Positions 504 through 35,730 of a DNA stretch of 37,373 nucleotides are shown here, piece by piece (within the stretch, counting starts at the first letter, position 1; each line of letters starts with the position of its first letter). The DNA is from a virus. The DNA is taken from positions 7,231-44,603 of IMG/VR virus record IMGVR_UViG_3300030012_004322; one strand, 5' to 3'. A program made the position numbers and the translations under genes. The notes below the pieces were generated by a model that was not told the DNA's origin, searched no databases, and worked only from the letters and a program-made list of their open reading frames with translations.

Positions 504-509
504 TTGGTT

Positions 510-2243
510 ATGAAAAAGTTACTATTTCTTATAGTGATTACTGCGATGGGGATGTTCAAGGGTCATTCACAGGCCCTTGTTCAAACCTATACAGATCGTT
601 GTACTGGACAAGTAAGTGTATTTACTGTGCCCATGAATGGTCAAACTGTAGTAGCTTTTTACAATCGTTCTGCAACATTTACTTCTCAAGATTTTCAAAA
701 TGGGACTTTGCAAGCTTGGTTAGAAGAAACATATTTATGGTGGACAGCATTAAGCCCATGTTCTACATCAACTACAGGAGCACAAGCCACTCAGCAAACT
801 ACTCAGCAAACTACCCAGCAAGCAACTCAAGCGGCTACTAATGCAGCTCAGAGTACTACTAACGTAAATACAACAGCTAATGTTACACCACCTACCACTA
901 CTAGTCCTCCCCCACCTTCACAAACATCTGCACCTCCGCCTCCAGATACTAGTTCAACTAATAATAATGCTAGTACTCCGGATACAACTGCATCTTCAGG
1001 CAATGCTGGTAATCAAGGAAATAATACGACAACATCGGGAGGATCTACTGAAGGAACGTCAAACTCTCAATCAAATCAAAACTCAACTGAATCGTCATCG
1101 TCAGAGACTAGTAAATCTACGGAACAAACTACAGAATCTTCTTCATCCGAAACAAAATCAACAGAAGAATCTACAACAGAATCAACAGAAGAAGTAAGTA
1201 CAGAAGAAACTTCTACTGAAGAAACTACAACTGAAGAAAGTACTACAGAAGAATCTACTGAAGAAACTTCTACAGAAGAATCTACTGAAGAAAGCAGTTC
1301 TGAAGAATCAAATGAATCAGAAACCGAAGAAGAAACTACAGATGAACAATCAGAAGAAGAAACCACCGAAGAAGAATCAAGTGAAGAATCAGATGAATCA
1401 GAATCAGAAGAAGAATCTGACGAGAGCACAGAAGAGGAATCAGAAGAGGAGACAGATGAAGAGGACACTGAATCCGATGAAGATGAAGAATCTGAGGATG
1501 AAAACTCAGAAGAGGAAAGCGACGACGAAACAGAGGAGAAGGACGGAAAGAAGAAAAAGAAAAAGAGAAATCTCGCTCCTCCAATTGTTACGGCAAATGT
1601 TTTAAGTCAACAAATGCCTACTGGGGAATTTACTCAGGCAGCAATGTTTGGCATAAGTAGATCCTCATTATTAGGAGATAAAACTTATGGGGCCAATGTT
1701 ATGATTTATGATAACATGAACCAATTCATGTTAAATTTAAATTATTCAAAAGTAAACATAAATAAAGAAGGAAGAGTAAATAGAGTTTACTCCGGGTCTA
1801 TTGGTGGAATGAAAATGTTTACTACTTATATGGCTATGATGAATCATTCAATGGTATTTATGGGTAAAAAAGGATCTGTAGCTGGTGTAGCATTTGGAAC
1901 TACAATAACAACTAATGAAGTAGATGTCATAGATGGTAATATTTACTTTGATAATCAATTTTTAGGTGTATCATTAACTGGTTTTTATACTAAACCAATT
2001 CAATGGAGTCCTAAACTTACTATAAGCCCTATGTTAGCTGTATCATCTCCTTTTATGATGTTTGATATGTATCAACACAATACAATGTGGAATTCAGATG
2101 TTATGATAATAGCTGGTTCTAATTTTACTTATAAATTAACTCAAAGATTTGGTTTAAATATAGGAGTAAATATTATCGAATCATCAGCATCGGATTTTCC
2201 AACCATGAAAACCTTTACAATAGGAGGCAGATTAAGTTTTTAA
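510..2243 (+). CDS. Secreted protein with giant Ser/Thr/Glu linker and outer-membrane-like C-terminus
   Basis: Start set at ATG 510 because MKKLLFLIVITAMGMF begins a clear signal peptide; a TTG at 504 is also in frame. Order of parts: signal peptide (~1-22); a compact domain (~23-92) with two cysteines; a Gln/Thr tract built on TTQQ; a Pro-rich stretch; a roughly 190-residue run dominated by Ser, Thr and Glu that becomes strongly acidic; a lysine block (KKKKKK); then ~210 residues of alternating aromatic/polar segments ending in GGRLSF. A C-terminal phenylalanine after such strands is the usual outer-membrane beta-barrel signature. Adjacent to the CsgG-like gene, it could be the exported or docked partner. 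No family recognised for the N-terminal domain. The linker has a long shadow ORF on the other strand that is an artefact of its codon bias. Confidence 0.75.
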   Translation: MKKLLFLIVITAMGMFKGHSQALVQTYTDRCTGQVSVFTVPMNGQTVVAFYNRSATFTSQDFQNGTLQAWLEETYLWWTALSPCSTSTTGAQATQQTTQQTTQQATQAATNAAQSTTNVNTTANVTPPTTTSPPPPSQTSAPPPPDTSSTNNNASTPDTTASSGNAGNQGNNTTTSGGSTEGTSNSQSNQNSTESSSSETSKSTEQTTESSSSETKSTEESTTESTEEVSTEETSTEETTTEESTTEESTEETSTEESTEESSSEESNESETEEETTDEQSEEETTEEESSEESDESESEEESDESTEEESEEETDEEDTESDEDEESEDENSEEESDDETEEKDGKKKKKKRNLAPPIVTANVLSQQMPTGEFTQAAMFGISRSSLLGDKTYGANVMIYDNMNQFMLNLNYSKVNINKEGRVNRVYSGSIGGMKMFTTYMAMMNHSMVFMGKKGSVAGVAFGTTITTNEVDVIDGNIYFDNQFLGVSLTGFYTKPIQWSPKLTISPMLAVSSPFMMFDMYQHNTMWNSDVMIIAGSNFTYKLTQRFGLNIGVNIIESSASDFPTMKTFTIGGRLSF

Positions 2244-2535: not shown

Positions 2536-4950
2536 ATGGAAAAAGAATATGTAATTGGTCTTAATAGGGGAATTGATACTAATCAATTTTGGCAAGATGT
2601 TGAAAAAATTACTAATTTAGATAATATTCCTAATCGTGCAGTTGAAGTAGCAAATCCACGTTCTGGAAGTAATAGATTAACTCATTATTATCTTACAGAT
2701 GAAGAAGCAGAAATGATTCGTCAGGATAAAAGAGTTTATTGTGTTGAAATTCCTGCCGATCAAAGAGATGATATTTCTATAGGTTTTGGAGCTACTCAAA
2801 CTGCAAACTTTACTAAAGCTAATGATGTAGATGGTAATGGTGCTGTAGACGCTACTGGCAGTGCCCGAAATTGGGGTTTATTAAGATCTAGATATAATTA
2901 TAACAATTATGGAACTTCTACTGACTTATCAGGAAGTTATTACTATACTTTAAATGGGAAAGGAGTAGATGTAGTTATTCAAGATAGTGGAATACAGAAA
3001 GATCACCCTGAATTTACTGATGAAAGTGGTGCCTCAAGAGTACAAGAAATAAATTGGTATACAGCTTCAGGTCTAACAGGTTCTCAATCTGCATACCTTT
3101 ACACCGATTATGATGGGCATGGGACTCATTGTGCCGGAATAGCAGCAGGTAAAACATTTGGGTTTGCTAGGGGAGCTAGAATATATGCTCAAAAATTAGC
3201 AGGTTTAGAAGGAAGTTCAGATCCTTATGATGGTATTCCTATATCAGATGCTTTTGATACTATAAGATTATGGCATGCATCGAAAAGTGGTAGTAGACCT
3301 ACTGTTGTTAATATGTCTTGGGGTTATGGAACTAATTTATCAGCAGGAGGTATTACTGCTGTAAATTATAGAGGATCAAGTGTAAGTGGAACTGAATATG
3401 CTACTGATTATGGTATTGCAACTTATAGTGCAGCAAGTACTTGGAGAATAAATGCTAGAGTATCTTCTGTAGATGTTGAAATTCAAGAAATGATTGATGC
3501 TGGTATTATAATTTGTATAGCATCTGGTAATTTAAATTATAAAATAGATGTTCCTGGTGGGTTAGATTATGATAATTATTTTACTAAAGGAGGAACAAAT
3601 TACTATTACCACAGAGGAAGCTCTCCATATGATGATGAAGCTTTTATAGTAGGATCTGTATCATACCTTTCTCCAAGTGCTACTACAGATAAAAAATCTT
3701 CATTTTCAAATGCTGGTCCCGGGGTTAATATTTATGCCCCTGGTCATTTTATAATGAGTGCCGAATCTACTGTTTATAATACAAGTGATCATACAGCAGC
3801 TGATTATAATTTAAATAGTTCTTTTAAACAAGCAATATTAAGTGGTACATCAATGGCTTCTCCTCAAGTAGCAGGTGTAGCTGCTTTAGCATTACAAGTT
3901 AGTCCTGCAGCAAAACCCCAATCAGTTAGAGAAGCAATTATTAATAATGCTACATCTAACATATTAATTTCGGGATCAGATCCAAATGGATGGAGTACTG
4001 GTGGTTCTTTAAATACTGCAAGACAACAAGGTGTTGGGTTTGGAACACAAAACGAAGCATTAATGACCACTGGTTGTAATTTCCCTTCCCGTTATTCTTC
4101 TACAGAAGAATATAATGGTTCATCTTGGTCAGCAGGAGGAGCTACAATTAATGCTAGAAATATAGCGGCGGGAGCGGGAACCCAAAACGCGGGTTTAATA
4201 ACTGGGGGGTATAATGGATCGGATAGAATATCTTGTACTGAAGAATATGGTGGTTCCTCATGGACAATAGGCGGTAATTTAATATCAGCAAGAGCTAGTT
4301 TAGCAGGAGCAGGTACTCAAAATGCTGGAATTGTATTTGGTGGGTGGTGTTCTCCTACTTTATTTAGTGCTACTGAAGAATATAATGGTTCTTCATGGAC
4401 CGCAGGTGGTAATTTAATATCAGCAAGATCTGATTTAGCAGGAGCAGGAACTCAAAATGCTGGGTTAGCAACAGGAGGGAATATTTCAGGTTTTGGTGTG
4501 ACATGTACAGAAGAATATAATGGAAGTTCTTGGTCAACCGGAGGCACTTTAATTTCAGGAAGACATAGATTAGCTTCATCAGGAACTCAAAATGCAGGTA
4601 TAGCAATTGCTGGGTTTGATTCATCTTTAACTCGAAGCTCTGCTACAGAATTATATAATGGAAGTTCTTGGTCAACTTCATGTAATTTAAATTGTGGATA
4701 TGAATATCTATCAGGAGCAGGATCTACAACATCGGCATTAGCCTTTGGTGGGGTAAATACACCTGGTAACGTTGTTGCTTGTACAGAAGAATTTACTACG
4801 GGTACTCCTTATTCAAATAACTGTGATTATTCAAGTGACAGTACAATGGGGGGTCCTACTAAAATGCTATGGAATAGATTTGGACAAGATCCTAATCCAA
4901 TTAATCAAAGTGGATCAATGAATATTTCAACATCAATACTTTTAAGCTAA
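2536..4950 (+). CDS. Subtilisin-like (S8) serine protease fused to kelch-like repeats
   Basis: An 804-residue protein in three parts. Residues ~1-80 look like an I9-type propeptide, ending in a strand of the form VYCVEIPAD. Residues ~135-475 are an S8 peptidase with the full triad: D150 (IQDSGI), H195 (DGHGTH) and S439 (SGTSMASP), plus oxyanion Asn332 (ASGN). Residues ~480-760 hold about six repeats of ~47-50 residues, each with a TEEYNGSSW core, a GG turn and an AGAGTQNAG strand, as in kelch-type propellers. There is no signal peptide. The gene sits between membrane-type genes and other tail-like proteins, so the product is probably a virion tail/fibre component. Its protease could mature the tail or digest a host surface protein; which of these is unknown. 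The candidate late-promoter motif lies 1-13 nt before the ATG. Confidence 0.88.
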   Translation: MEKEYVIGLNRGIDTNQFWQDVEKITNLDNIPNRAVEVANPRSGSNRLTHYYLTDEEAEMIRQDKRVYCVEIPADQRDDISIGFGATQTANFTKANDVDGNGAVDATGSARNWGLLRSRYNYNNYGTSTDLSGSYYYTLNGKGVDVVIQDSGIQKDHPEFTDESGASRVQEINWYTASGLTGSQSAYLYTDYDGHGTHCAGIAAGKTFGFARGARIYAQKLAGLEGSSDPYDGIPISDAFDTIRLWHASKSGSRPTVVNMSWGYGTNLSAGGITAVNYRGSSVSGTEYATDYGIATYSAASTWRINARVSSVDVEIQEMIDAGIIICIASGNLNYKIDVPGGLDYDNYFTKGGTNYYYHRGSSPYDDEAFIVGSVSYLSPSATTDKKSSFSNAGPGVNIYAPGHFIMSAESTVYNTSDHTAADYNLNSSFKQAILSGTSMASPQVAGVAALALQVSPAAKPQSVREAIINNATSNILISGSDPNGWSTGGSLNTARQQGVGFGTQNEALMTTGCNFPSRYSSTEEYNGSSWSAGGATINARNIAAGAGTQNAGLITGGYNGSDRISCTEEYGGSSWTIGGNLISARASLAGAGTQNAGIVFGGWCSPTLFSATEEYNGSSWTAGGNLISARSDLAGAGTQNAGLATGGNISGFGVTCTEEYNGSSWSTGGTLISGRHRLASSGTQNAGIAIAGFDSSLTRSSATELYNGSSWSTSCNLNCGYEYLSGAGSTTSALAFGGVNTPGNVVACTEEFTTGTPYSNNCDYSSDSTMGGPTKMLWNRFGQDPNPINQSGSMNISTSILLS
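4020..4790 (+). repeat. Tandem kelch-like coding repeats in the protease gene
   Basis: About six imperfect units of roughly 140-150 bp. The same nucleotide blocks recur: one encoding EEYNGSSW, one encoding GGNLISAR and one encoding AGAGTQNAG. Identity is visible at DNA level, for example near 4270-4345 and 4390-4460, so recent duplication or recombination between units is likely. Confidence 0.8.
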
Positions 4951-4971: not shown

Positions 4972-6069
4972 ATGAAAATATCAGGTAGTTTACATACAAC
5001 AGGAAGTATAGAATTTTCATTTGTGGGCTCAGGTACTGGAGTTTGGGCTTCTTCTACTTCTATGAATGTAGGAAGGAGTAAAACTGCAGGAATGGGAGCA
5101 TGCCAAGATTCAGTTTTAGCTGTAGGTGGTCAAAATCAGTATAATCCATCTGCTTGTAGGTGTATAAACAACACAGAAGCATGGGATGGTACTTCTTGGA
5201 CTCATTGTTCTGTATTACAAAATGGTAGAAATGCATTAGCCGCAGCAGGAACAACAAATTCAGGATTAGCATTTGGGGGTTATTATTCAGTTGGATGCAC
5301 AGAATCTTGGAATGGGTCTGCATGGAGTAATGAATCCAATTTTAGTACAGGACTTGGAGGTAACAATGGATTACAATGCTTATCTGGGGCAGGAACCCAA
5401 AACGCAGCATTAGCCTTTGCGGGTAATGCTTCTTATTATGGACGAAATTATACATTTGCGTTTGATGGTTCTGCATGGTCTTCCGGTGGAAATTTGATTG
5501 TTTGTAGAGCACAAGGTGCAGGATTTGGAATTCAAAATGCCGCTTTAGCAGTAGGTGGGTATAATACACCTAACCCATCATATCCATCTAATAATGTAAC
5601 AGAAGAATATAATGGTAGTAGTTGGTCTCTAGGTGGCAATCTTATTAGTGGCATGATGCAAATAGCAGGAGTTGGCACACAAAATGCTGGATTAGCCTTT
5701 GCGGGTAATTATGTAGAAGAATATAATGGTACTTCATGGTCAACTGCAAATTTAATGTCACCTTCTCATTGCGCTTCAATGCTGGGAGGTGCAGGAACCC
5801 AAGCTTCAGCTTTAGCATTTGGGGGGTATGGTTATCCTGTCTCTTGTAATGCTGCCTCTACATATACAAAACCTACAGGACCTCAAAAAGCATTTGAATT
5901 TATTTCAACAACAGGAAACACAAATCTAACAGGATCATTAAACGGTGATGCTTCTCAAGCTAAAAATAATAATTCAAATAGTGGTAGTTTATCATTTTGG
6001 CAAGGAAGTTCATCTGAATATAGTGCTTTAAGTTCATATGATGATAATACAATATACTTTGTAGTATAA
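4972..6069 (+). CDS. Kelch-repeat tail/fibre-like protein
   Basis: A 365-residue protein made mostly of the same kelch-like repeats as the upstream protease (cores such as EEYNGSSW, GAGTQNA and LAFGG), about six units between residues ~20 and 300. The N-terminus (MKISGSLHTTGSIEFSF) is a short strand-rich lead typical of phage fibre attachment segments. The C-terminal ~70 residues are Ser/Asn-rich without repeats. No protease domain is present. It starts 21 nt after the protease stop and shares its candidate late-promoter motif in the gap. Likely a partner or paralogous copy of the repeat domain, used for binding at the host surface; exact structural role unknown. Confidence 0.75.
   Translation: MKISGSLHTTGSIEFSFVGSGTGVWASSTSMNVGRSKTAGMGACQDSVLAVGGQNQYNPSACRCINNTEAWDGTSWTHCSVLQNGRNALAAAGTTNSGLAFGGYYSVGCTESWNGSAWSNESNFSTGLGGNNGLQCLSGAGTQNAALAFAGNASYYGRNYTFAFDGSAWSSGGNLIVCRAQGAGFGIQNAALAVGGYNTPNPSYPSNNVTEEYNGSSWSLGGNLISGMMQIAGVGTQNAGLAFAGNYVEEYNGTSWSTANLMSPSHCASMLGGAGTQASALAFGGYGYPVSCNAASTYTKPTGPQKAFEFISTTGNTNLTGSLNGDASQAKNNNSNSGSLSFWQGSSSEYSALSSYDDNTIYFVV
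5080..5860 (+). repeat. Second set of kelch-like coding repeats
   Basis: Imperfect repeats of about 130-150 bp, sharing blocks with those at 4020-4790 (the EEYNGSSW and AGxGTQNAG codings). The two sets lie within 300 bp of each other in the same orientation, which makes recombination between genes possible. Confidence 0.7.
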
Positions 6070-6073
6070 AGTT

Positions 6074-7030
6074 ATGGGTTTAAATAGAGGAAATACTACT
6101 ATCTCTGCTGCATATAGAGGAAATACTACTCTTAGTGCCATATACCGTGGTTCTACTCAAATGTTTCCTTCAGGATACTCTGTTAACTACCTTATAGTAG
6201 GAGGTGGTGGCGGAGGTGGAGCAAGAAGAGGTTCCGGAGGTGGTGGAGGTGGATTTAGAACAACTACGGGATCTACTTATTCTGGTAGAAATTCCTCTCT
6301 AGAAAATTCAATCACATTTTCATCTGGTGAAACTGTTACTATTACAGTAGGAGGAGGTGGATCTGGAGCACCGGCAGGTACATCAACTTATGGTTCAAAA
6401 GGAGGAAATTCATCTATATCTTATAGTGGTGGTACATTAACTTCAATAGGAGGAGGAGGTGGAATGGGAATAGGTTGTAGTCATAGTGGTTCAGCAAATG
6501 GAGGTTGTGGAGCAGGAGGTGGTGCCCGAGGTGCCTCTGATTTATATGATTATCCCCCTTATAGTTCTGGTTCAGGAGAAGTAGGTCAAGGTTTTGATGG
6601 AGGATATGGTTCTAAAGCACATAACGGCGGCGGCGGAGGCGGCGGCGGTGGAGGTGGTGCTGGATCAGCTGGTGATAATGGAGTTGGAAATACAGGTAAT
6701 TATTATGGAGGTGGCTCTAACCCAGGTGGATCTGGTATATCAAATAATATTACAGGAACATCTGTTACATATTCTAATGGAGGAAATGCCCCAAATGGAA
6801 TTGGAGGTAATTATAACTCTAACGAACCAGCAAATACAGGAGATGGTTCATCAGGAAATGCTGAAACTGCTGGGGTTAATTATAACTCAGGAAATGGAGG
6901 ATCTGGAATAGTAGTATTAGTAATGCCTACTTCTAATTATTCTGGTACTACAACTGGTTCACCTACAGTTACAACCTCTGGGGCTAACACTATACTTAAA
7001 TTTACATCATCTGGTACTTATACAGGATGA
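6074..7030 (+). CDS. Glycine-rich adhesin-like tail protein
   Basis: A 318-residue protein. The first ~40 residues repeat a short unit (RGNTTISAAY, RGNTTLSAIY, RGSTQMF), a pattern seen as N-terminal attachment segments in marine phage fibres. The unit following it (VNYLIVGGGGGGG) begins a glycine-rich domain that runs to ~residue 280, with clusters of GG/GGG and scattered Ser, Asn and Tyr. The C-terminus is Thr/Ser-rich with beta-strand pattern. Glycine-rich adhesins of T4-like phages pack polyglycine helices and carry the host-specificity loops, which fits here by analogy only. DNA at 6626-6660 is unusually GC-rich because of GGN codons. Confidence 0.75.
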   Translation: MGLNRGNTTISAAYRGNTTLSAIYRGSTQMFPSGYSVNYLIVGGGGGGGARRGSGGGGGGFRTTTGSTYSGRNSSLENSITFSSGETVTITVGGGGSGAPAGTSTYGSKGGNSSISYSGGTLTSIGGGGGMGIGCSHSGSANGGCGAGGGARGASDLYDYPPYSSGSGEVGQGFDGGYGSKAHNGGGGGGGGGGGAGSAGDNGVGNTGNYYGGGSNPGGSGISNNITGTSVTYSNGGNAPNGIGGNYNSNEPANTGDGSSGNAETAGVNYNSGNGGSGIVVLVMPTSNYSGTTTGSPTVTTSGANTILKFTSSGTYTG

Positions 7031-7770: not shown

Positions 7771-8262
7771 ATGCCCATAAAACCAAAAGGAATTATACTT
7801 CATAGTATGAGTGAATACCTCGTATATGAAGGTAAAAAATTATATGCAAAAGATTTTCTTAAAACTTTAGGATTATCTGTACACGGGTTTATTAAACCTG
7901 ATGGGACTTATGATAAAATGATTGTATCTCCTAATAAAGCATTTCATGCAGGTAAATCATTACATGAAGGTTTATCTGGATTAAATTCACATTATTTAGG
8001 AATAGAATTATTAGTTCCTGGTGTAAATGATTATGGATCATTTAGTAAAAAAATTCAAATCCCTGGAACCTACTCTCAAGCTCAATTTAATACTACAGTA
8101 GAAGTATTTAAATATTGGATGAAACAATACAATATACCTGTATCTAGAGTAGTAAGACATTCTGATGTATCAGGTGATCATGTAAGAGGAAAGGGTAAAG
8201 GTAAAACTGACCCTGGTTCTGCTTTTGATTTTGAAGCCTTAAAAAAAGCATTGTCTGCTTAA
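7771..8262 (+). CDS. N-acetylmuramoyl-L-alanine amidase (endolysin)
   Basis: A 163-residue single-domain Amidase_2-type enzyme that cleaves the bond between MurNAc and the peptide stem of peptidoglycan. Zinc-ligand candidates are H11 (IILHSMSEY), H130 (VVRHSDVSG) and D147 (KTDPG). The AFHAG stretch and the GIELLVPG strand are also family-typical. In T7 lysozyme the third ligand is Cys; here it is Asp as in AmpD. No signal peptide or wall-binding domain, so it would need the holin next door to reach the wall. Confidence 0.85.
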   Translation: MPIKPKGIILHSMSEYLVYEGKKLYAKDFLKTLGLSVHGFIKPDGTYDKMIVSPNKAFHAGKSLHEGLSGLNSHYLGIELLVPGVNDYGSFSKKIQIPGTYSQAQFNTTVEVFKYWMKQYNIPVSRVVRHSDVSGDHVRGKGKGKTDPGSAFDFEALKKALSA

Positions 8263-10839: not shown

Positions 10840-11048
10840 TGACAGAATTAATAAAACATGCTTTAGGGATTTGTGGAGATCACTTTCATCCAAATATTTG
10901 GAATCTTTTATTAGGAGGATTTGGATTCCCAATAATTTTATTTTATATTAAATCTTATATTAAATGTAAAATTACAGCGTTTGCCTATACGCTTTATAAT
11001 ACCTGGCAAAATTTAATTAATTATTTATCATGGCGAAAAATGTCGTAG
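10839..11048 (+). CDS. Small membrane protein, unknown
   Basis: A 69-residue product with a hydrophobic stretch (LLLGGFGFPIILFYI) near residues 23-38, and aromatic residues near the C-terminus. It overlaps the transglycosylase gene by one nucleotide and the queC gene by 19. Tight packing argues for a real gene. No family recognised. Confidence 0.5.
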   Translation: MTELIKHALGICGDHFHPNIWNLLLGGFGFPIILFYIKSYIKCKITAFAYTLYNTWQNLINYLSWRKMS

Positions 11049-11821
11049 TTAGTCTTTCAGGAGGGATGGACTCCTCAACTTTATTACTTAGATGTTTATC
11101 TGAGTATGATAATGTAACTGCTTTATCTTTTGATTACGGTCAGAAGCATAGAGTAGAGCTTGAAAGAGCTCAATCATTAGTAGATTATTTAAATGCTAAT
11201 GGTCAGAATATTAAATATCAAGTTATTAAACTTGATGGACTTGTTAACTTACTAAATTCAGCTTTAGTAACAGGAGGTGAAGATGTACCAGAAGGTCATT
11301 ATGAGGAAGATAACATGAAGGCTACTGTAGTACCTAATAGAAATAAAATATTTGCTTCTTTAGTACAAGCAGTTGCTTTATCAGAAGCTAATTCAAATGG
11401 TTTAAATACTGATATAGCTTTAGGTATTCATGCTGGTGATCATGCAATTTACCCTGATTGTAGACAAGAATTTAGAGATGCAGACGATGCTGCCTTTAGA
11501 ATTGGTAACTGGGATGCAGATAAAGTAGGATACTTTACTCCTTACTTAGAAACTGATAAACTTGGAATTTTAAAAGATGGACAGAAATTGGTTAAAGAGC
11601 TCGGAGTTACTTTTAATGATGTATACAAACGTACTAATACATCTTATAAGCCCTATCCTAGCGGTAATAGCGACTATAAATCAGCATCATCTGTTGAAAG
11701 GATTGAAGCATTCATCAACTTGGGTGTGGATGACCCTGTACAATATGAGGATGAGACTGGAGAAGTTGAATATAGTGTTGCGAAAGCACATGTAGAAAAA
11801 CTATTAGCTCAATATGCGTAA
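11030..11821 (+). CDS. queC: QueC-like 7-cyano-7-deazaguanine synthase, zinc site lost
   Basis: A 263-residue PP-loop ATPase. SGGMDSS at 10-16 is the pyrophosphate-binding loop, FDYGQKH and VVPNRN (near 103) are the usual QueC blocks, and the length fits. QueC turns 7-carboxy-7-deazaguanine into preQ0 using ammonia and ATP. Bacterial QueC holds zinc with four Cys in the form SCY...CGxCxxC-xxR. Aligning on TSY and R224, those positions here are S205, D215, S218 and S221, so the site is absent. The rest of the fold looks intact. Whether it is active, or a phage variant that does without zinc, is open. Ends with an 8-nt overlap with the next gene. Confidence 0.88.
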   Translation: MAKNVVVSLSGGMDSSTLLLRCLSEYDNVTALSFDYGQKHRVELERAQSLVDYLNANGQNIKYQVIKLDGLVNLLNSALVTGGEDVPEGHYEEDNMKATVVPNRNKIFASLVQAVALSEANSNGLNTDIALGIHAGDHAIYPDCRQEFRDADDAAFRIGNWDADKVGYFTPYLETDKLGILKDGQKLVKELGVTFNDVYKRTNTSYKPYPSGNSDYKSASSVERIEAFINLGVDDPVQYEDETGEVEYSVAKAHVEKLLAQYA

Positions 11822-12143
11822 GTTTATATTAATATTTACATTAATGGTTAATTCTCTTGCCTTCGGGCAAGAGGATGTACCATATCAAATGTTAGGTATA
11901 TGGTCTAACATGGAAGGAGAATTATTAACTGTCAATAGAAATCTTGATGATATAGTTTTTGTACGTAAATCTAGAACCCAAATTAAAGCTACAGGAAGTA
12001 TAGAACTAAATGACGGTCAATTAAGAATATATAGAAAAGATAAACAGGATGAATATGATCTTGCTTTTTTTATTGGTAACGAAACAATGGTAATTACAAA
12101 ACCAAGATCACCAAGAGCTTGGATTTGGTTTAGAATACAATAA
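11814..12143 (+). CDS. Small secreted protein, unknown
   Basis: A 109-residue protein whose first ~18 residues form a signal peptide (MRKFILIFTLMVNSLAFG, then QEDV). Mature part about 90 residues, with beta-strand-like pattern and basic/aromatic C-terminus (RSPRAWIWFRIQ). No lipobox Cys. It overlaps queC by 8 nt. A periplasmic product in a nucleotide-modification block is unexpected. No family recognised. Confidence 0.6.
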   Translation: MRKFILIFTLMVNSLAFGQEDVPYQMLGIWSNMEGELLTVNRNLDDIVFVRKSRTQIKATGSIELNDGQLRIYRKDKQDEYDLAFFIGNETMVITKPRSPRAWIWFRIQ

Positions 12144-12144
12144 T

Positions 12145-12327
12145 ATGGCTTACGGAACAGAAAGTTATAATCAAAAATATCCTGATGCAAAAAAGCATCA
12201 AATAATAAGTTTTATTAAATCTGGTATTAGAATTTTAGGATATGGTTTTTTGCCTTTTAATTTGGCTATTGCAACTATTATTCTTATATTATCTGAAGTA
12301 ATAGGTATTTACGAAGAATTAGTATGA
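12145..12327 (+). CDS. Small conserved membrane protein
   Basis: A 60-residue product: a basic N-terminus (MAYGTESYNQKYPDAKKHQ), one hydrophobic hairpin (~28-56), and a C-terminal EVIGIYEELV. I recall similar short proteins, ending in a GIxEELV motif, in phages and Bacteroidota genomes, without a known function. It starts 1 nt after the secreted protein's stop and overlaps the next gene. Confidence 0.6.
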   Translation: MAYGTESYNQKYPDAKKHQIISFIKSGIRILGYGFLPFNLAIATIILILSEVIGIYEELV

Positions 12328-12509
12328 GTCCAGATTTTGTAATATCAGCTTTAACATTTTCTATAGTAATGGTAATTTTTAATATTGTTAAAGATTATTT
12401 TATTATTCCTAATTATAATTTATCTGATAAAACTTTAAAAAAAGTTAATAAAAGATGGTATATTAGTTTTATGGTTGGAATAATAATATTATATTTAGTA
12501 TATGGCTAA
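12324..12509 (+). CDS. Small membrane protein, unknown
   Basis: A 61-residue protein with two hydrophobic stretches (~5-22 and 46-60) around a polar, Lys-rich middle. Start overlaps the previous stop in an ATGA arrangement. No family recognised. Confidence 0.55.
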   Translation: MSPDFVISALTFSIVMVIFNIVKDYFIIPNYNLSDKTLKKVNKRWYISFMVGIIILYLVYG

Positions 12510-12630
12510 AAGAAAAGAAGGTTGTGAAATGAATTCACCTATATATAGGCAAATTCTAAAAGAAGTATCTAAAGGTTATAGTTTTGAACAGTGTTATAAA
12601 ACAAATAAAATAATTAGAGTTAAAAGATGA
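12502..12630 (+). CDS. Small basic protein of 42 codons, unknown
   Basis: Reads MAKRKEGCEMNSPIYRQILK, then EVSKGYSFEQCYKTNK and a basic end (IIRVKR). Starts 8 nt inside the previous gene and its stop overlaps the thioredoxin ATG as ATGA. That exact tiling is the main evidence for it being a gene. Two Cys, seven or more Lys. No family recognised. Confidence 0.55.
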   Translation: MAKRKEGCEMNSPIYRQILKEVSKGYSFEQCYKTNKIIRVKR

Positions 12631-12875
12631 AAAAAATATTATATTTTAGTGCTGCGTGGTGTGGACCTTGTAAAACATTAGGACCTATTATGGAATCACT
12701 ATCGGGTCAAATTAATTATGAAAAAGTTGATGTTGATAATAATCAAGATTTACCAATTCAATATGGAGTTAGAAATGTTCCTACTCTAATTTTATTAGAT
12801 GAAACAGGAGAAACTAAAGGTAGATTAGTAGGTATACAATCAAAAGATGCAATTTTAAATTTTTATAATGGGTAA
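12627..12875 (+). CDS. Thioredoxin
   Basis: An 82-residue thioredoxin-fold protein with the canonical active site WCGPC at residues 11-15 and cis-proline VPT at 51-53. It lacks the first strand and helix of E. coli thioredoxin (108 aa), so is a short phage or glutaredoxin-like form. It would serve as disulfide reductant, for instance for a ribonucleotide reductase encoded elsewhere. Overlaps queD by 8 nt. Confidence 0.9.
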   Translation: MKKILYFSAAWCGPCKTLGPIMESLSGQINYEKVDVDNNQDLPIQYGVRNVPTLILLDETGETKGRLVGIQSKDAILNFYNG

Positions 12876-13335
12876 ATTTCAATCAACAAAAGTATTTGAT
12901 GGTTTTTCTACTGTATTTAGACAGTGGAAAGCTGAAACCACTCACTGTAAATATATTCATGGTTATGGAATTTCTTTTAAGATATGGTTTGAAGGAGATT
13001 TAGACGATAGAAATTGGGTATGGGATTTCGGTGGTATGAAAAGAGCTAAAGGTAAAATAGACGGTATGTCACCTAAGGAATGGTTTGATTTTATGTTTGA
13101 TCACACTTTAATTGTGGCCGAAGATGATCCTTATGCTAAGGCATTTGCACAAATGCATGATGCCGGAGTAGCTCAAGTTAGATTTATACCAGCAACAGGG
13201 GCAGAAAAATTTGCTGAATACATTTATGATAAAGTAAATCAGTTTATTTTCCCTGAAACTGATGGAAGAGTACAAGTAGTAAAAGTAGAATTTAGAGAGC
13301 ATGAAAAAAATAGTGCTATTTATATACCTAAATAA
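12868..13335 (+). CDS. queD: QueD-like 6-carboxytetrahydropterin synthase
   Basis: A 155-residue member of the 6-pyruvoyl-tetrahydropterin synthase family. Seen: catalytic Cys27 (THCKY), H31 (HGYG), the VWDFGG block at 51-56 and D78-H79-T80-L81 (canonical DHxxL). QueD converts dihydroneopterin triphosphate to 6-carboxytetrahydropterin, the second step to preQ0. It is the atypical form: canonical FSAAH reads FSTVF (F17) and canonical HGHN reads HGYG, so two of the three usual zinc His are replaced. H26, next to the Cys, may compensate. The same FR.W...HC...HGY pattern occurs, as far as I recall, in a bacterial QueD subfamily. Confidence 0.85.
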   Translation: MGKFQSTKVFDGFSTVFRQWKAETTHCKYIHGYGISFKIWFEGDLDDRNWVWDFGGMKRAKGKIDGMSPKEWFDFMFDHTLIVAEDDPYAKAFAQMHDAGVAQVRFIPATGAEKFAEYIYDKVNQFIFPETDGRVQVVKVEFREHEKNSAIYIPK

Positions 13336-13345
13336 TATTTATTAA
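13334..13345 (+). promoter_or_regulatory. Candidate late-promoter motif (variant)
   Basis: AATATTTATTAA directly after the queD stop, 40 nt before the queE ATG. Variant of the AATATTTATAATAAA motif found in other gaps. Weak on its own in such AT-rich DNA. Confidence 0.3.
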
Positions 13346-13347
13346 GA

Positions 13348-13358
13348 ACAGTGACTGT
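13348..13358. promoter_or_regulatory. Small inverted repeat upstream of queE
   Basis: ACAGTGACTGT is a perfect 5-bp palindrome around a central G, 27 nt before the queE start. It could be an operator half-site pair; too short to be sure. Confidence 0.2.
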
Positions 13359-13384
13359 AAAACCACTTTAAAAAATTAACAATT

Positions 13385-14158
13385 ATGCTCAAACGAATTG
13401 AGGACTATAATAAAGTCCTCCCAATCCTAGAATTATATACAGCAGTACAATCAGAGGGTAGCAGACAAGGCTATCCTACTATTGTTGTTAGAACATCAGG
13501 TTGCACCCATAGATGCTATTTTGGCGAAGGTGGATGGTGCGATTCTTGGTATACAAGTATTCACCCAGAGAAAGGTAAATACAGTTTTCAAGATATAATT
13601 GATATGTACGATGCAAATCCTCATATTAGTGAAATGATGTTAACGGGTGGTTCTCCCACAATGCACCCTAAAATAGTAAACGAATTAACACATTTAGCTA
13701 ATGAAAGAGATATTTTTATTACTATCGAAACTGAAGGAAGCCATTTCCTTCCTACTGATTATCCCATTAATCTTCTTAGTATTAGTCCTAAGTTTTCCAA
13801 TAGTGTTCCTGTACTGGGAGTGGAAACACCGCAAGGAGCGATTACTGATCAAAAGATGATTGATAGACATAATAAATTTAGAGTAAATAAAGATGCAATT
13901 AAAAAAAGTATTAATTATCATTCTGATTACCATATTAAGCCTGTCCTTGACAAAGACTTATCAATGGTTAAAGAAGTTGAAGAATTTATCAAAGACTTAG
14001 AAATCCCAGATGATAAAGTATGGGCAATGCCCGCTGGTGATGATAGAGATGCATTATTTGAAAGTTATGGTCCTGTAATGAATTTTGTAAGAGATAGAGG
14101 TTGGAGATATACAGGTAGATCTCACATAATGGCTTTTGGAACCGAAAGATGTGTTTAA
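13385..14158 (+). CDS. queE: QueE-like radical SAM 7-carboxy-7-deazaguanine synthase
   Basis: A 257-residue radical SAM protein. The cluster-binding cysteines are C40, C44 and C52 (C-x3-C-x7-C) instead of plain C-x3-C-x2-C; the spacing is widened by an FGEGG insert. An EGSRQGYPT block precedes it and TGGSP (87-91) follows, both QueE signatures. The enzyme rearranges 6-carboxytetrahydropterin to 7-carboxy-7-deazaguanine. It is in the same strand and order as the other preQ0 genes, and a ferredoxin follows immediately, a plausible electron donor for the iron-sulfur cluster. Confidence 0.88.
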   Translation: MLKRIEDYNKVLPILELYTAVQSEGSRQGYPTIVVRTSGCTHRCYFGEGGWCDSWYTSIHPEKGKYSFQDIIDMYDANPHISEMMLTGGSPTMHPKIVNELTHLANERDIFITIETEGSHFLPTDYPINLLSISPKFSNSVPVLGVETPQGAITDQKMIDRHNKFRVNKDAIKKSINYHSDYHIKPVLDKDLSMVKEVEEFIKDLEIPDDKVWAMPAGDDRDALFESYGPVMNFVRDRGWRYTGRSHIMAFGTERCV

Positions 14159-14410
14159 ATGAGTTATATTATAGGTAAAGCATGTATTGGAGTTAAGGAT
14201 AGTGCCTGTATAGCGGCATGTCCTGTAGATTGTATCCATACAGGTGAAGAACAAATGTACATTGACCCTGAAGAATGTATAAATTGCGGTGCGTGTGTGC
14301 CAGAATGTCCAGTAGAAGCCATTTTCGAGGATGAAGATGAAGCTATAGAGGCTGGAGAATTAGATTCAGTAAAAGCAAATTACAAATTTTTTGATTTAGA
14401 ATATGAGTAG
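14159..14410 (+). CDS. Ferredoxin (two clusters)
   Basis: An 83-residue ferredoxin with cysteines at 9, 17, 21, 25, 40, 43, 46 and 50. The C-x7-C-x3-CPxxC first half is like seven-iron ferredoxins ([3Fe-4S] plus [4Fe-4S]); the second half CxxCxxCxxxCP is a normal [4Fe-4S] motif. An acidic tail (FEDEDEAIEAGE) suits an electron carrier. It abuts queE and overlaps folE by 8 nt, which suggests it feeds electrons to the radical SAM enzyme; direct evidence is lacking. Confidence 0.88.
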   Translation: MSYIIGKACIGVKDSACIAACPVDCIHTGEEQMYIDPEECINCGACVPECPVEAIFEDEDEAIEAGELDSVKANYKFFDLEYE

Positions 14411-15092
14411 AAAAAAGAAGTTTACAGATTTAGAATCTGTACCTGTAGGTTATGCAAATGGTATTGCACCCGGTTTTCCATTAAATGATAAAGAGAAAAC
14501 TAAAATGATAGAACGTGCGGCTAAGGCGTACGGTAAATTTTTAAGTGAATTAAAATGTGATTGGGAAAATGATCCTAATTCACAAGACACTCCTAGGAGA
14601 GTAGCTAAAGCATATGTAAATGATTTATGGGAAGGTAGATACACCGCTATGAGTGAAGTAACATCTTTCCCAAGTGATGGTTACGATGGTATAGTAATAG
14701 AAAGAAATATTCCGATTACATCAATGTGTTCCCATCACCACCAAACTATAAAAGGTTTAGTCCATATAGGTTATATAGCAAATGAAGATGGTAGAGTAGT
14801 AGGATTATCTAAATTAAATAGAATAGTAGAATTATTTTCTAGAAGAGGTGCTATCCAAGAACAATTAACCTCAGCTATCCATAATGCTGTAAATACTATT
14901 TGTGAAAATAATAAAGGAGTAATAACTACAGTAGTGGCTACACATAATTGTGTTAGTTGTAGAGGAGTTAAACACCATGGTGCATCAATGGTTACAACTA
15001 AAGCATCAGGTGTGTTTATGGAAAATGAGAATTTAGCTCGTAAAGAGTTTTTTGATAGTATAAAAATTAATAATGGAAACCATCCTGTATAA
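14403..15092 (+). CDS. folE: GTP cyclohydrolase I
   Basis: A 229-residue FolE. Zinc ligands C109 (MCSHHH), H112 and C183 (HNCVSCRGV) match E. coli C110, H113 and C181. GLSKLNR (134-140), the FSRR stretch and QEQLT are also family blocks. It opens GTP to dihydroneopterin triphosphate, the first step of the preQ0 route. The related fold of QueF (nitrile reductase) was considered; the zinc site and GLSK motif decide for FolE. No QueF is seen in this window, so the phage product is likely preQ0 and not preQ1. Confidence 0.92.
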   Translation: MSRKKKFTDLESVPVGYANGIAPGFPLNDKEKTKMIERAAKAYGKFLSELKCDWENDPNSQDTPRRVAKAYVNDLWEGRYTAMSEVTSFPSDGYDGIVIERNIPITSMCSHHHQTIKGLVHIGYIANEDGRVVGLSKLNRIVELFSRRGAIQEQLTSAIHNAVNTICENNKGVITTVVATHNCVSCRGVKHHGASMVTTKASGVFMENENLARKEFFDSIKINNGNHPV

Positions 15093-15487: not shown

Positions 15488-15630
15488 GATTAGGAGATTT
15501 CGTTGAAAAGTTAATTAGCATTATTACCTTGGGTCAAGGTAAACGTATTGCAACCTACATTGCTAAATTAAGAGGAAAAGAAGATTGTGGTTGTGAAAGA
15601 AGAAAAAACAAACTAAATAAGTTATTATGA
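15484..15630 (+). CDS. Small Cys-rich protein of 48 codons
   Basis: Reads MRLGDFVEKLISIITLGQGK, then RIATYIAKLRG, then KEDCGCERRKNKLNKLL. The DCGC...R...LN ending occurs, as I recall, in many short phage proteins of unknown role; CGC could bind metal. Start overlaps the previous stop and its stop overlaps the next ATG (both ATGA type), which supports it as real. Confidence 0.6.
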   Translation: MRLGDFVEKLISIITLGQGKRIATYIAKLRGKEDCGCERRKNKLNKLL

Positions 15631-16151
15631 GTAAACCTAGTGTACCTTTTGTAAATGAAGTAGAGGAATTTAATCAAACATTTAACAAACCCAATAACTA
15701 TGAACCAACCATCCCAGAAGAAAAAGAATGGAAATTTGTCTACGATTTTATCCTTGAAGAACTCGAAGAATATAGAGAAGCTTGCGAACGAGGCGACATT
15801 GTGGAAGTTTTGGATGCTTTGTGCGACATTGCTTACGTTTCCATTGGGAACGGTACTATGCTACACGGCCTTAAGGATAAGATATGGCCCGCTTATCAAG
15901 AGGTACAAGCAAGTAATATGTCTAAAGCTTGCTCAAGTGAAAAAGAAGCCATGGAAACTGTCAGGGTACGAGCTAAGGAGCAAGGTGAGGAGTGTTATTT
16001 TGAAAAAGTTGCGGAGGGAAGGTATATTGTCTATAGAAAACGAGATAAAAAGGTAATGAAATCTATAAATTATTTTAGACCCGACTTACATCAATTTTTT
16101 AGTGATGAAGATATAGTTAGAACTAGACCACAACAACATATGGGTATCTAA
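15627..16151 (+). CDS. MazG-like nucleotide pyrophosphohydrolase
   Basis: A 174-residue all-alpha NTP pyrophosphohydrolase-like protein (MazG/PRA-PH superfamily). The metal-binding acids are E44, E45, E47, E48 in ILEELEEY and E60, D63, D67 in EVLDALCDI. It would hydrolyse nucleoside triphosphates to monophosphates, for clearing unmodified or damaged nucleotides or altering ppGpp. The last ~50 residues are a basic tail (VYRKRDKK). Codon use is distinctly richer in G+C at 15720-16020 than in neighbours, suggesting separate arrival. Confidence 0.75.
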   Translation: MSKPSVPFVNEVEEFNQTFNKPNNYEPTIPEEKEWKFVYDFILEELEEYREACERGDIVEVLDALCDIAYVSIGNGTMLHGLKDKIWPAYQEVQASNMSKACSSEKEAMETVRVRAKEQGEECYFEKVAEGRYIVYRKRDKKVMKSINYFRPDLHQFFSDEDIVRTRPQQHMGI

Positions 16152-17923
16152 TGTACAAAAAATGTTATCAAGGTAAAAAATTAGGGTCTAATTTATATGA
16201 AATGCATCTTTGGGAATCTGATGGTAAACATCAAGTAGTACCTTATTTAAATGAAGCATACCAAATTTGTGATGATCCCAATTGTGAATATACTGGTTTA
16301 GGGGGTGAACCACTAAAAAAAATTAAAAATTGGTTTTTTTCTAAAAACGAGAGATATTCCCATAATAATACCCCTAATTTGTATTTTAACGATATGGGGA
16401 TAATCCAAAAGTTTTTAGTAGAAAAATATGGTATTAATGATGAACCCTCTACTGGTCATAAAGAATTCTTTTTTGATATTGAGTGTGAAATAGGAGGAGC
16501 ATTAACCCCAGAATATATTGAGCGTGCACCTATGCCTATTACTTCTATAGCTTGGTGGGATAAAAGTTCGGATTGGTGGGCTATACTAGTTTTAGATAAA
16601 AAAAATCAACTTTCTCATACTAAAGCTAAAAATAAAGAGATAATACCCTGTGCTACTGAACAGGATTTATTATTTAAATTTGTAGAAAAATTTAGAGAAA
16701 TTGACCCAGATATTGTAATAGGTTATAATAGTGATTTTTTTGATATACCTTATTTATATTATAGAATGTGTAACGTATTAGGTAAAGAAAGTGCTGATTA
16801 TCTTTCACCTTTAAATGGGTTAGTTGATGAACCTATAGCATCTAAAAAATATAGTAAGTTTTATTATGGTAATGACCAAAGTGTAAATATATTAGGAGTT
16901 GAATCTCTTGATTACATGCGTTTACATAAAAAATATAGTTGGAAAGATGAACCAAGTTGGAAGTTAGATTCAATTGGGGAAAAATATGCCGGGGTAAATA
17001 AAATTGAGTATGAGGGGAATTTAGATCAATTATTTGAAACTGATATTCATAAATTTATTCAATATAACTTTCGTGATGTTGAGATATTAAAATTATTAGA
17101 TGAAAAGTTACAGTATATAGCTTTAACTAAAAATCTATCTCATAAGGGAAAACATAATTATGAAAATGTATACTACAATAGTATAACTCAAGATGGAGCT
17201 ATATCCGCTTATTTATTATCTAAAGGAATTGTACCACCTAATAGAGAGGTAAATCCAAGAAAAAAATTAAATTATGCTGGTGGTTATTTATTTTGTCCTA
17301 AAGCTGGTTTGTATAAATATATGTTTGATGAGGATTTAACTTCACTATATCCCTCTATTATTATGTCACTAAATATAGGTAAAGAAACATTCATGGGTCG
17401 TATTATAGATGCAGATGATCGCAATAATAGATTGGGACTTAATGATTTAGAATCCAAAAATCCAGATGAGGATGTTTTATTTGAAAGTTCATCTGGGAAA
17501 CAATCAAGACAACTTATAGGTGATTTAGTTAAAGCTATTAAATCAAAAAATCTAGCTATTTCAGCTAATGGTGTTATGTTTAGTACAGATAGAGAATCAA
17601 CTTTATCAACAGTTTTAAATAAATGGTTTGAAGAACGAGTTGAATATAAAAGCAAAATGAAAAATGCTTATAAAAAAGGTAATAAAGAAAAAGGAGAATA
17701 TTATCATTTAATGCAATATACAATGAAAATTTTATTAAATAGTTTGTATGGTGCAACAGCCTTACCTAGTTTTAGGTATGGAATGAATTACTCAATATTA
17801 AGTGAAGCAATTACTTTATCAGGTCACAGAATTATTCAAGAATCTGCTTTATGTGCTAATAGACATATGAATAAAGTAATTAGAAATGAAATTAAATTAG
17901 AATTATCAAATGGTAATAGATAG
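16151..17923 (+). CDS. 43A: DNA polymerase (gp43-type), part A: exonuclease and palm/fingers to motif B
   Basis: A 590-residue N-terminal two-thirds of a family B polymerase. Proofreading exonuclease sites are D109/E111 (FFDIECE), D198 (NSDFFDIPYL) and Y305/D309 (YNFRD). Polymerase motif A is D395 (DLTSLYPSII) and motif B is K526 with NSLYG at 530-534. Motif C, which carries the other catalytic aspartates, is missing: it lies in the ORF at 18937-19872. This ORF plus that one total 901 residues, near T4 gp43 (898). The reading frame stops after a short tail (LSNGNR). The two products are expected to assemble; no intein blocks are visible. Confidence 0.95.
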   Translation: MYKKCYQGKKLGSNLYEMHLWESDGKHQVVPYLNEAYQICDDPNCEYTGLGGEPLKKIKNWFFSKNERYSHNNTPNLYFNDMGIIQKFLVEKYGINDEPSTGHKEFFFDIECEIGGALTPEYIERAPMPITSIAWWDKSSDWWAILVLDKKNQLSHTKAKNKEIIPCATEQDLLFKFVEKFREIDPDIVIGYNSDFFDIPYLYYRMCNVLGKESADYLSPLNGLVDEPIASKKYSKFYYGNDQSVNILGVESLDYMRLHKKYSWKDEPSWKLDSIGEKYAGVNKIEYEGNLDQLFETDIHKFIQYNFRDVEILKLLDEKLQYIALTKNLSHKGKHNYENVYYNSITQDGAISAYLLSKGIVPPNREVNPRKKLNYAGGYLFCPKAGLYKYMFDEDLTSLYPSIIMSLNIGKETFMGRIIDADDRNNRLGLNDLESKNPDEDVLFESSSGKQSRQLIGDLVKAIKSKNLAISANGVMFSTDRESTLSTVLNKWFEERVEYKSKMKNAYKKGNKEKGEYYHLMQYTMKILLNSLYGATALPSFRYGMNYSILSEAITLSGHRIIQESALCANRHMNKVIRNEIKLELSNGNR

Positions 17924-18553: not shown

Positions 18554-18937
18554 ATGCAAGTAGAAGTATCAATAGGAGAATTTTTAGATAAAGTTAGTAT
18601 TATAGAATTAAAACTTCTAAATATTAAAGATAAATCAAAATTAGTTAATATTAAAAGAGAGTTTTATTATTTAAACCCTTTTTGTAATGAATTATTTGAA
18701 ACTTATGGAGATGAGTTAAAATCTTTATATCTTAAATTATCCAAGATAAATGGGGCATTATGGACTATAGAGGATAAATTACGTGAATTGGAATCTAAAA
18801 AATCCTTTGGTGAAGAATTTGTAGAATTAGCTCGTTCTGTGTATTTTACAAATGATACACGTGCTGAAGTAAAAAAAGATATTAATTTATTAACTGGTAG
18901 TGAGTTAATAGAAGAAAAATCTTATAAAGATTACTAA
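18554..18937 (+). CDS. DUF6165-like protein
   Basis: A 127-residue protein starting MQVEVSIGEFLDKVSIIELK. The order of blocks, IGEFLDK, then KLVNIKREF, then ALWTIEDKLRELE, then ELARSVYFTND and EEKSYKDY, matches what I remember of DUF6165, found in bacterial LPS and glycosyl-transferase neighbourhoods. Molecular function unknown. With the cupin it gives the insert in the polymerase a sugar/LPS theme. An in-frame ATG at 18539 is less likely. Confidence 0.75.
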   Translation: MQVEVSIGEFLDKVSIIELKLLNIKDKSKLVNIKREFYYLNPFCNELFETYGDELKSLYLKLSKINGALWTIEDKLRELESKKSFGEEFVELARSVYFTNDTRAEVKKDINLLTGSELIEEKSYKDY

Positions 18938-19872
18938 TGAAACATTTAGAAGATACACCTTGGTTTATTTGTGATGCAGAAGATAATAACTACTGTGCTT
19001 ATGTTGATACAGATTCTAATTATTTTAATGCCGAACCTATATTAAAACATCTTTACCCTGATTTTGAAGATTTAAGTGATAAAGAAAAAGATGATAAATT
19101 AGAAAATGTAGCTTTAGCATACCAAGATATTATTACAGATCATTATAACCAATTAGCTAAAGAATGTTTTAATATATCTACTCACCGTTTAGAAATGAAA
19201 ACAGAATGTGTTATTCGTTCTGCTTATTTTAGAAATACAAGAAGATATGCTCAATGGATTACTAAACAAGAAGGTGTTGAAAAAGAAACTTTAGATATTA
19301 AAGGTTTAGAATTTATGAAAGCGAATTTTCCTCCTATTTTAGGTAAATTTTTTAATAAAATATTACAACAGGCATTAAAAGGGGGAGAATATTTATCTAT
19401 TTTATCTCAAATAAAGGATTTTAAAAAAAGAATATTAGATGGTGATATACCAATTGAACAATTAGGTAATCCTACTGCTGTAAAAAAATTAGATAAATAT
19501 ACTTCTAAAAAAGCTAGAGCAGGGGAAGTATTTACTACAATTGAAAAAGGAGCTCCAGCACCTGTAAGAGCAGCTATTAAATATAATGATTTATTACGTT
19601 TATGGAAATTAGATAAACAATATAATTATATTACACAAGCAAGTAAAATTAAATGGATTTATTTAAAAGATAATCCATATAAAATAGAAGCATTAGGGTT
19701 CATTGAGGGTGGAATGCCTAGTAAAATTAAGGAATTTTTAAACCAATATGCAGACCGTAAAAAAGTATTTGAAACTATTTTATTAAATAAATTAGAAGGG
19801 TTTTTTAATGATTTAGATTGGTCTTTAAATTTAAATCCCCATTTAAATAAATTCGCTTCTTTTGAGATTTAA
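18937..19872 (+). CDS. 43B: DNA polymerase (gp43-type), part B: palm motif C and thumb
   Basis: A 311-residue C-terminal third of a family B polymerase. Motif C is YVDTDS at 22-27 with D24 and D26, completing the catalytic site begun in 43A. RRYAQW (a KKRYA-like motif) and DIKGLEFMK follow in T4 gp43 order, then the thumb. The C-terminus (LNKFASFEI) has aromatic residues where T4 gp43 ends in a gp45-binding tail. The start overlaps the preceding stop by one base. It begins with about 20 residues of its own before motif C; whether these replace the residues between motifs B and C or form an added interface is unclear. Confidence 0.93.
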   Translation: MKHLEDTPWFICDAEDNNYCAYVDTDSNYFNAEPILKHLYPDFEDLSDKEKDDKLENVALAYQDIITDHYNQLAKECFNISTHRLEMKTECVIRSAYFRNTRRYAQWITKQEGVEKETLDIKGLEFMKANFPPILGKFFNKILQQALKGGEYLSILSQIKDFKKRILDGDIPIEQLGNPTAVKKLDKYTSKKARAGEVFTTIEKGAPAPVRAAIKYNDLLRLWKLDKQYNYITQASKIKWIYLKDNPYKIEALGFIEGGMPSKIKEFLNQYADRKKVFETILLNKLEGFFNDLDWSLNLNPHLNKFASFEI

Positions 19873-24437: not shown

Positions 24438-24708
24438 TGCAGTTATAGTAAAACCTATAGAAGTTGAAGAAACAACTTATGGAAATATAATTGTTCCTGA
24501 TATAGGTAAAGAAACAAATGAAACTGGGGAAGTTATAGCTATAGGACCAGGTAAACATACTATTTCAGGGACATTATTACCTACACAATTAAAAATAGGA
24601 GATATAGTAGTATTACCTACAATGGGATTTACTAAATTACCTTATGATGGTGAAGAATATTATGTTGGACCCGAAAATCAAGTTTTAGCAAAAATAAATA
24701 ATGAGTAA
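24415..24708 (+). CDS. groES: Co-chaperonin GroES
   Basis: A 97-residue, full-length GroES. DAVIVKPIEVEETTYGNIIVPD opens the barrel and the mobile loop; the IIVP hydrophobic tip would bind GroEL. A GEVIAIGPGK strand and a GDIVVLP/EYYVGPENQVLAKI end follow the family. It forms the lid over GroEL. The next gene, groEL, overlaps by 8 nt as in host operons. Confidence 0.95.
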   Translation: MALEALFDAVIVKPIEVEETTYGNIIVPDIGKETNETGEVIAIGPGKHTISGTLLPTQLKIGDIVVLPTMGFTKLPYDGEEYYVGPENQVLAKINNE

Positions 24709-33766: not shown

Positions 33767-34206
33767 TGGCTTATGATAATTTAATAAATTGTACTCGTTG
33801 TGGCAGTGATGCTTGTTATATGCAAGAAGTAACTAAGGATATTAAAATTGAATTATGTTATGGATGTGGTTATCAGTCTAATTCTGTAATGAAAGTTGAT
33901 AGTCAATTTTTAAAGGAACAAATGGAAATCCTCCCAGATTTATATAAATCTCTTATAGATGAAGAAGAGGATGGAAAAGTATGGATGCCTTCATTTCATA
34001 ATGTAGATGGTAAAGGGATGGTATTTGCTGATGGTACTTCTAGGGAACAATGGGCTTGGGGTGCTGCTAAACATATAGAAGTACCTAAGGAAGATAGAGC
34101 TAAATATAAAGGTGCAAAGTATAGAGCAGATATGAGTTCAATTAAACATTTCCCAGAACGTGATTTTATAGGAGCATTAACGTATATTGGTGTATTACCT
34201 GAATAA
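33766..34206 (+). CDS. Zinc-ribbon-type small protein
   Basis: A 146-residue protein with C9-x2-C12 and C31-x2-C34 (NCTRC and LCYGC), a zinc ribbon, plus C17. After it comes a helical part and a C-terminus with Trp-rich EQWAWGAAKH. From memory similar ribbon proteins appear near glycosyltransferases in marine phages. Function unknown. One-nucleotide overlaps at both ends. Confidence 0.65.
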   Translation: MAYDNLINCTRCGSDACYMQEVTKDIKIELCYGCGYQSNSVMKVDSQFLKEQMEILPDLYKSLIDEEEDGKVWMPSFHNVDGKGMVFADGTSREQWAWGAAKHIEVPKEDRAKYKGAKYRADMSSIKHFPERDFIGALTYIGVLPE

Positions 34207-35638: not shown

Positions 35639-35730
35639 AACGTTTTAGAAATTGGGAATTAATGGATTATATTGCTTGGTCTTTAATAGTAGTATTAATT
35701 ATCCTTTATATTAAATTATTTACAGAATGA
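35635..35730 (+). CDS. Very short single-pass membrane protein
   Basis: A 31-codon ORF: MKRFRNWELMDYIAW, then a hydrophobic segment (SLIVVLIILYIKLF). Basic N-terminus, one membrane span. It overlaps the previous stop and the next ATG (ATGA at both ends), the only strong evidence that it is a gene. No family recognised. Confidence 0.45.
   Translation: MKRFRNWELMDYIAWSLIVVLIILYIKLFTE

Follow-up and report, generated by a model that had tools for sequence, protein, structure and literature searches.

The open reading frame at 2536-4950 of the window, i.e. the whole analyzed stretch of 37,373 nucleotides out of a 44.6-kb virus record (G000), encodes an apparently intact protease, predicted from its sequence to be catalytically competent and proteinase-K-like, into which a kelch propeller has been inserted (Table 1). 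The explanation that we favor, with a probability of roughly 55%, is that of a tail- or baseplate-borne protease restrained by its prodomain, in which the grafted kelch domain binds or positions the target, probably a protein of the host surface.

Table 1. Positions of the protease gene, its parts and its neighbors in the window.
Feature	Position	Strand	Basis or remark
Signal-peptide protein, acidic over a long Ser/Thr/Glu stretch, with a barrel-like C-terminal end (last residue Phe)	504-2243		
S8 protease with inserted kelch propeller	2536..4950	+	ORF call, 804 aa
N-terminal prodomain, residues 1-90, I9-like fold, no signal peptide	2536..2805	+	
Low-confidence linker, residues 91-111	2806..2868	+	pLDDT <50 at 93-110
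Proteinase-K-type catalytic domain, first part, residues 112-484	2869..3987	+	
Catalytic Asp150	2983..2985	+	motif VIQDSGI
Catalytic His195	3118..3120	+	motif DGHGTH
Oxyanion Asn332	3529..3531	+	motif ASGN
Catalytic Ser439	3850..3852	+	motif SGTSMASP
Inserted kelch domain, residues ~485-765, six repeats	3988..4830	+	phmmer; absent from L001
Last strand of protease fold, residues ~766-785 (GGPTKMLWNRFG)	4831..4890	+	aqualysin alignment; conserved tail of standalone relatives
Short variable C-terminal tail	4891..4947	+	
Kelch-repeat protein with C-terminal Phage_tail_C motif, fibre-like	4972..6069	+	PF24243 2.8e-6, phrog_27227 1.8e-49
Glycine-rich domain protein	6074..7030	+	PF21722 2.5e-15
N-acetylmuramoyl-L-alanine amidase (endolysin)	7771..8262	+	PF01510 1.1e-14

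The catalytic domain and its family

By employing a Pfam search on the 804-aa ORF, we found Peptidase_S8 (PF00082) at residues 141-501, with an E-value of 7.5e-33 and a score of 114.5 (cut-off 21.8 bits). In the PHROG search, PHROG 9158, a family of unknown function, matched residues 1-517 (1e-66), and the protease family phrog 3677 was matched by the same ORF (6.5e-40). The triad is in the D-H-S order with the DSG, HGTH and GTSMA motifs of proteinase-K-like S8 enzymes, and the ORF position and the residues D150, H195, N332 and S439 named in the original prediction were all exact, each in its proper motif. An AlphaFold model made from 25 alignment rows was confident for the protease and the prodomain and without confidence for residues 494-769. 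Its structural matches (Foldseek, VIA-align) included aqualysin I, keratinase and proteinase K, and residues 3-276 of aqualysin (4dzt) align to model residues 108-782 (Z 36.8, rmsd 1.9 A, 266 residues), which takes in the subtilisin fold including its last strand. With proteinase K and aqualysin I (S8A) the protein thereby has in common the fold over 108-782, the D-H-S order, the oxyanion Asn, the final strand and an N-terminal prodomain, whereas it differs from them in being phage-encoded, in having no signal peptide and in carrying kelch repeats before the last strand.

Relatives, ~95 in number, were obtained from two IMG/VR scans and from phage records. Asp, Ser and Asn were each present in 95 of the 96 alignment rows and His in all of them, the three gaps being due to two truncated ORFs and one ORF gapped at the Asn column. 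Every relative that covers the catalytic residues has kept them, as would be expected of an active enzyme, and the loss in close relatives that had been named as counter-evidence was not seen in these 96 rows. When 84,980 genomes of bacteria and archaea were scanned, only four loci of the protease family came up, so that the family looks mainly viral. The catalytic domain is what unites its members, which occur throughout aquatic T4-like phages. Among them is the PHROG 9158/T4-GC 292 "subtilisin-like serine protease" of Kyanoviridae (S-CREM1, S-H38, S-WAM2 and P-SSM2), with the same prodomain and protease unit at 28-37% identity and with a location beside baseplate and tail-fibre genes, but without kelch repeats and with different C-terminal ends.

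A kelch propeller inside the protease fold

Six kelch repeats of ~45 aa are found within residues ~486-752, with units starting at 501, 546, 591, 636, 681 and 727. Their homology to known kelch propellers follows from phmmer matches to the designed kelch protein SAKe6 (8pjx, 3.9e-11), KLHL12 (2.1e-9) and Keap1 (~1e-5). The kelch-like family phrog_27227 matched residues 530-775 of the protease ORF (8.7e-46), and Pfam Kelch did not match this ORF at E-values up to 1. The AlphaFold model of the propeller (alignment A4) had a pLDDT of 38.7 and was discarded, leaving the propeller to rest on sequence. Propellers are usually closed by one repeat that is split between both ends. As the stretch before residue 501 (GWSTGGSLNTARQ) resembles the final part of a C-terminally shortened repeat unit, we infer that the sixth repeat may be divided between the ends of the insert, which would close the propeller.

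Standalone relatives end in ...NDY...S..GG....YN.. shortly past the last helix, and the same tail (DYSSDSTMGGPTKMLWNRFG) is found here after the repeats. The closest relative, L001 (IMGVR_UViG_3300026187_000360), has a protease of 77% identity with synteny on both sides; its protein of 525 aa runs from VSGSGD directly into NDYSDDSTMGG without any kelch insert, and the downstream kelch fibre and Gly-rich genes are absent as well. In alignment A2 the kelch-only rows were misaligned over the protease, and only its S8 rows were read. Because the aqualysin match spans model residues 108-782, the last protease strand is formed after the repeats, and the predicted propeller is inserted into the protease loop before that strand, i.e. 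not fused C-terminally. Of the protease-kelch fusion in the original prediction, the kelch repeats are thus real, and they are placed inside the protease fold rather than appended to it.

As far as the searched collections show, from which records very close to the window may be absent, this in-fold insert is new, its parts and the family being already known. Among 99 S8 and 233 kelch ORFs the window ORF alone had both, neither a junction query, a scan with the junction DNA pattern nor the isolate phages gave a true second case beyond the window, and no publication on a phage subtilase with kelch repeats, or on its function, was found in the open-access literature. The missing second case would suit a chimera produced during assembly, or a dead insertion that occurred only once, with a plain S8 protease like that of L001 as the real protein. 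We consider this very improbable, because both junctions are in frame and at domain borders, the GC3 of the insert (0.14) lies within that of its surroundings (0.10-0.18), and long repeats are absent from the joints, the longest exact repeat touching the insert being 24 bases and situated within the repeats, away from the junctions. The insert also holds six repeats, with a split one at its ends. It would rather be a natural case in which a binding propeller interrupts a protease whose sequence signature stays intact.

The repeats are ~50-58% identical to those of aquatic-phage kelch-repeat proteins (phrog_27227; L010-L028), which unlike the window protein have no protease and are often very long. 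The adjacent kelch gene was considered as a recent source of the insert and rejected, as the two share only ~70% DNA identity, in pieces, which argues against recent copying.

The prodomain

Residues 1-80 had pLDDT values mostly of 77-91, with one block at 64, and the model gives the element order E3-9 H15-23 E38-40 E48-53 H55-62 E67-71. Structures of pro-enzymes align from the very start of the model, i.e. ProN-Tk-SP (3afg, chain B) from residue 1 and fervidolysin (1r6v) from residue 2, and eight prodomain positions (P32, R34, R42, L53, E57, A58, D64 and R66) are invariant across 27 rows. The prodomain profile (A7) met the propeptide chain 8c4z_A of a proteinase-K-like enzyme weakly (E 1.1), and none of 25 family members matched Pfam I9 at E-values up to 1. 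The I9-like prodomain that had been proposed is accordingly backed by fold and position and not by a Pfam I9 match; judging from these features, which are as in pro-subtilisins, the domain likely works as an I9 prodomain does. The claimed absence of a signal peptide agrees with the N-terminus, which is not hydrophobic (top 12-residue hydropathy of 0.02 within the first ~45 residues).

The protease would be synthesized in the cytoplasm without a signal peptide, and the prodomain would aid its folding and block its active site. Conservation within the first 484 residues is lowest in the stretch 76-112, and self-cleavage would probably take place in the linker 91-111 or in the prodomain tail just before it.

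Gene neighborhood and virion location

Upstream of the protease, the window encodes the secreted acidic barrel-like protein as well as a small membrane protein; downstream come the kelch protein, the Gly-rich protein, two small proteins (one membrane-type) and the amidase. L001 and L038 have the acidic barrel-like protein in the same place before the protease, and over its N-terminal part it shares 36% identity with a region of Flavobacterium phage immuto. A curli (CsgG-like) identity for the upstream genes lacked Pfam or PDB support and was dropped. The scanned parts of the window yielded no gene that could be named as a canonical tail or head gene. The description of the gene as lying among tail genes holds for its 3' side, with fibre-like neighbors (PF24243/kelch and Gly-rich), but not for its upstream side, where the acidic barrel-like and membrane proteins are encoded.

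Across the 58 non-redundant relatives of a family-wide survey, baseplate and tail-fibre genes commonly flank the protease. Matches to phrog_677 (baseplate wedge-tail fibre connector) were seen directly upstream in 14 of 54 relatives and directly downstream in 22 of 49, and many tail-fibre families were found as well. Nearly all non-redundant relatives with upstream sequence have a same-strand gene directly upstream, which usually overlaps the protease gene or lies within ~40 bases of it, and in the Kyanoviridae set (S-CREM1, S-H38 and Sf-FR1) the protease gene adjoins baseplate genes. A place among baseplate and fibre genes is thus seen family-wide, and in the window only on the 3' side.

Since the window gene lies few genes ahead of a membrane protein and the amidase, and after secreted or envelope-type genes, it could also encode a free protease that comes out at lysis or acts while the cell is dying, and that would aid the breakdown of envelope or debris. 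This seems quite unlikely, as baseplate and fibre genes are the commonest recognized neighbors in the family and a homolog is labeled as a virion protein. That homolog, S-SCSM1 gp144, is an S8 protein with intact triad, annotated "baseplate wedge subunit (virion protein)", and a distant relative with ~30% identity to the protease studied here. Like the latter it combines an intact-triad protease and binding-type domains in one chain, but it has lectin-like regions after the protease instead of a kelch insert. According to PMC9602691, 45 virion proteins of S-SCSM1 were detected by mass spectrometry. The "(virion protein)" label very probably marks these detected proteins, since we counted 47 such labels in the S-SCSM1 record, NMNAT, which the paper names, is labeled, and several predicted structural genes are not. 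The virion-borne location put forward in the original prediction is in this way supported by evidence from relatives, i.e. the family-wide neighbors and the virion-labeled homolog, and the latter does not point to the absence from virions that would speak against it.

Domain gains among relatives

Additional domains occur at several places in the family. Some relatives carry Calx-beta-like arrays past the last protease strand, L112 has an insert of ~300 residues at ~position 160 (with a cut copy in L108), and L006-L009 have one of ~100 residues at ~position 252. As read from the sequence, S-SCSM1 gp144 has two lectin-like regions, and the S-MbCM7 protease (L201:3986-6910) continues into a hydrolase-like region and then a cupredoxin-like end; in BFVD, one S8-like phage protein is filed under a lectin name. 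A domain marked by an EVIEHVMHTLH-like motif, or the terminal part of this domain (NPLGYA..), lies inside the protease fold in L112 (L112:2890-5418) and within the Calx-beta-like array of L002/L005/L009, and is apparently mobile, given its differing sites in these four. By analogy, the repeated gain of differing domains, C-terminally or in other loops, resembles the evolution of host-facing fibres.

The role of the protease

One could suppose that the enzyme serves assembly or maturation, cutting adjacent fibres or baseplate parts or only itself, with the kelch domain docked to the adjacent kelch-bearing fibre; the usually tight packing of the gene with fibre and baseplate genes and the kelch repeats in the next gene would suit this. 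A review on jumbo phages has also argued that those peptidases whose occurrence correlates with virion type serve mostly to process proteins of the virion (PMC7824862). We nevertheless find such a role unlikely, as the S-SCSM1 homolog, by its label, appears to remain in the virion. Moreover, proteinase-K-like enzymes are typically broad in specificity, and the varied gains of binding-type domains are easier to reconcile with a host target that changes than with an unchanging virion substrate. It is because many such domains were gained that we suggest a target that changes, for instance the host surface; this is an argument rather than a test.

For the favored virion-borne protease, the propeller would most likely bind or position the substrate, which may be an outer-surface protein of the host met at adsorption. 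Its support comes from the S8 match, the triad, the aqualysin fold, the prodomain, the baseplate and fibre neighbors and the virion-labeled gp144. On the other side stand the low pLDDT of the propeller, virion evidence drawn from a relative of ~30% identity, an upstream gene that here, in L001 and in L038 encodes the secreted acidic barrel-like protein instead of a part of the fibre or baseplate, and the lack of a Pfam I9 match.

More tentatively, phages might possess a class of virion-borne, prodomain-restrained broad proteases that clear or remodel host surface proteins at adsorption and are retargeted by acquiring binding domains. If so, these would be the protein counterpart of tailspike depolymerases, with domains (kelch, lectin, Calx-beta-like) acquired in or beside the enzyme. 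Enzymes of the virion that attack host polysaccharides are well known, and to our knowledge tail-carried proteases that cut host proteins have hardly been studied; a virion role of this protease family appears not to be described in the open-access papers searched. As the family is widespread, has kept its active site, is virion-labeled in one isolate and occurs in cultured cyanophages, the idea can be tested at once.

Other features of the phage genome

Judging by its genes, the phage is a relative of Flavobacterium phage immuto, and its host likely belongs to the Bacteroidota. QueC is 69% identical between the two, and immuto has a relative of a gene upstream of the protease (51% identical to the copy in L001), but no S8 match. 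QueC, QueE-like and GTP cyclohydrolase genes, i.e. a 7-deazaguanine pathway set, are located at 11030-15092, with MazG next at 15627, and this set suggests modified phage DNA.

The record L030 begins with two bacterial-looking genes, the barrel end of a TonB-dependent receptor (L030:3-716) and an S1/P1 nuclease (L030:1010-1939). The nuclease had no match in the isolate phages searched, and the receptor matched in two unannotated gut contigs; this start may be phage cargo or a mis-joined end. Ten N near the window start in the same record (L030:7225-7240) represent a gap in the scaffold that falls within the gene before 7332.

In the window, the T4-type DNA polymerase (phrog_262) is split into ORFs at 16151-17923 and 18937-19872, which match profile positions 25-569 and 565-851, respectively, with three small ORFs in between. 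A full-length GroEL (TIGR02348, above cut-off) is encoded at 24701-26317, and two glycosyltransferases and a nucleotide-sugar epimerase-like gene are found at 31050-37141.
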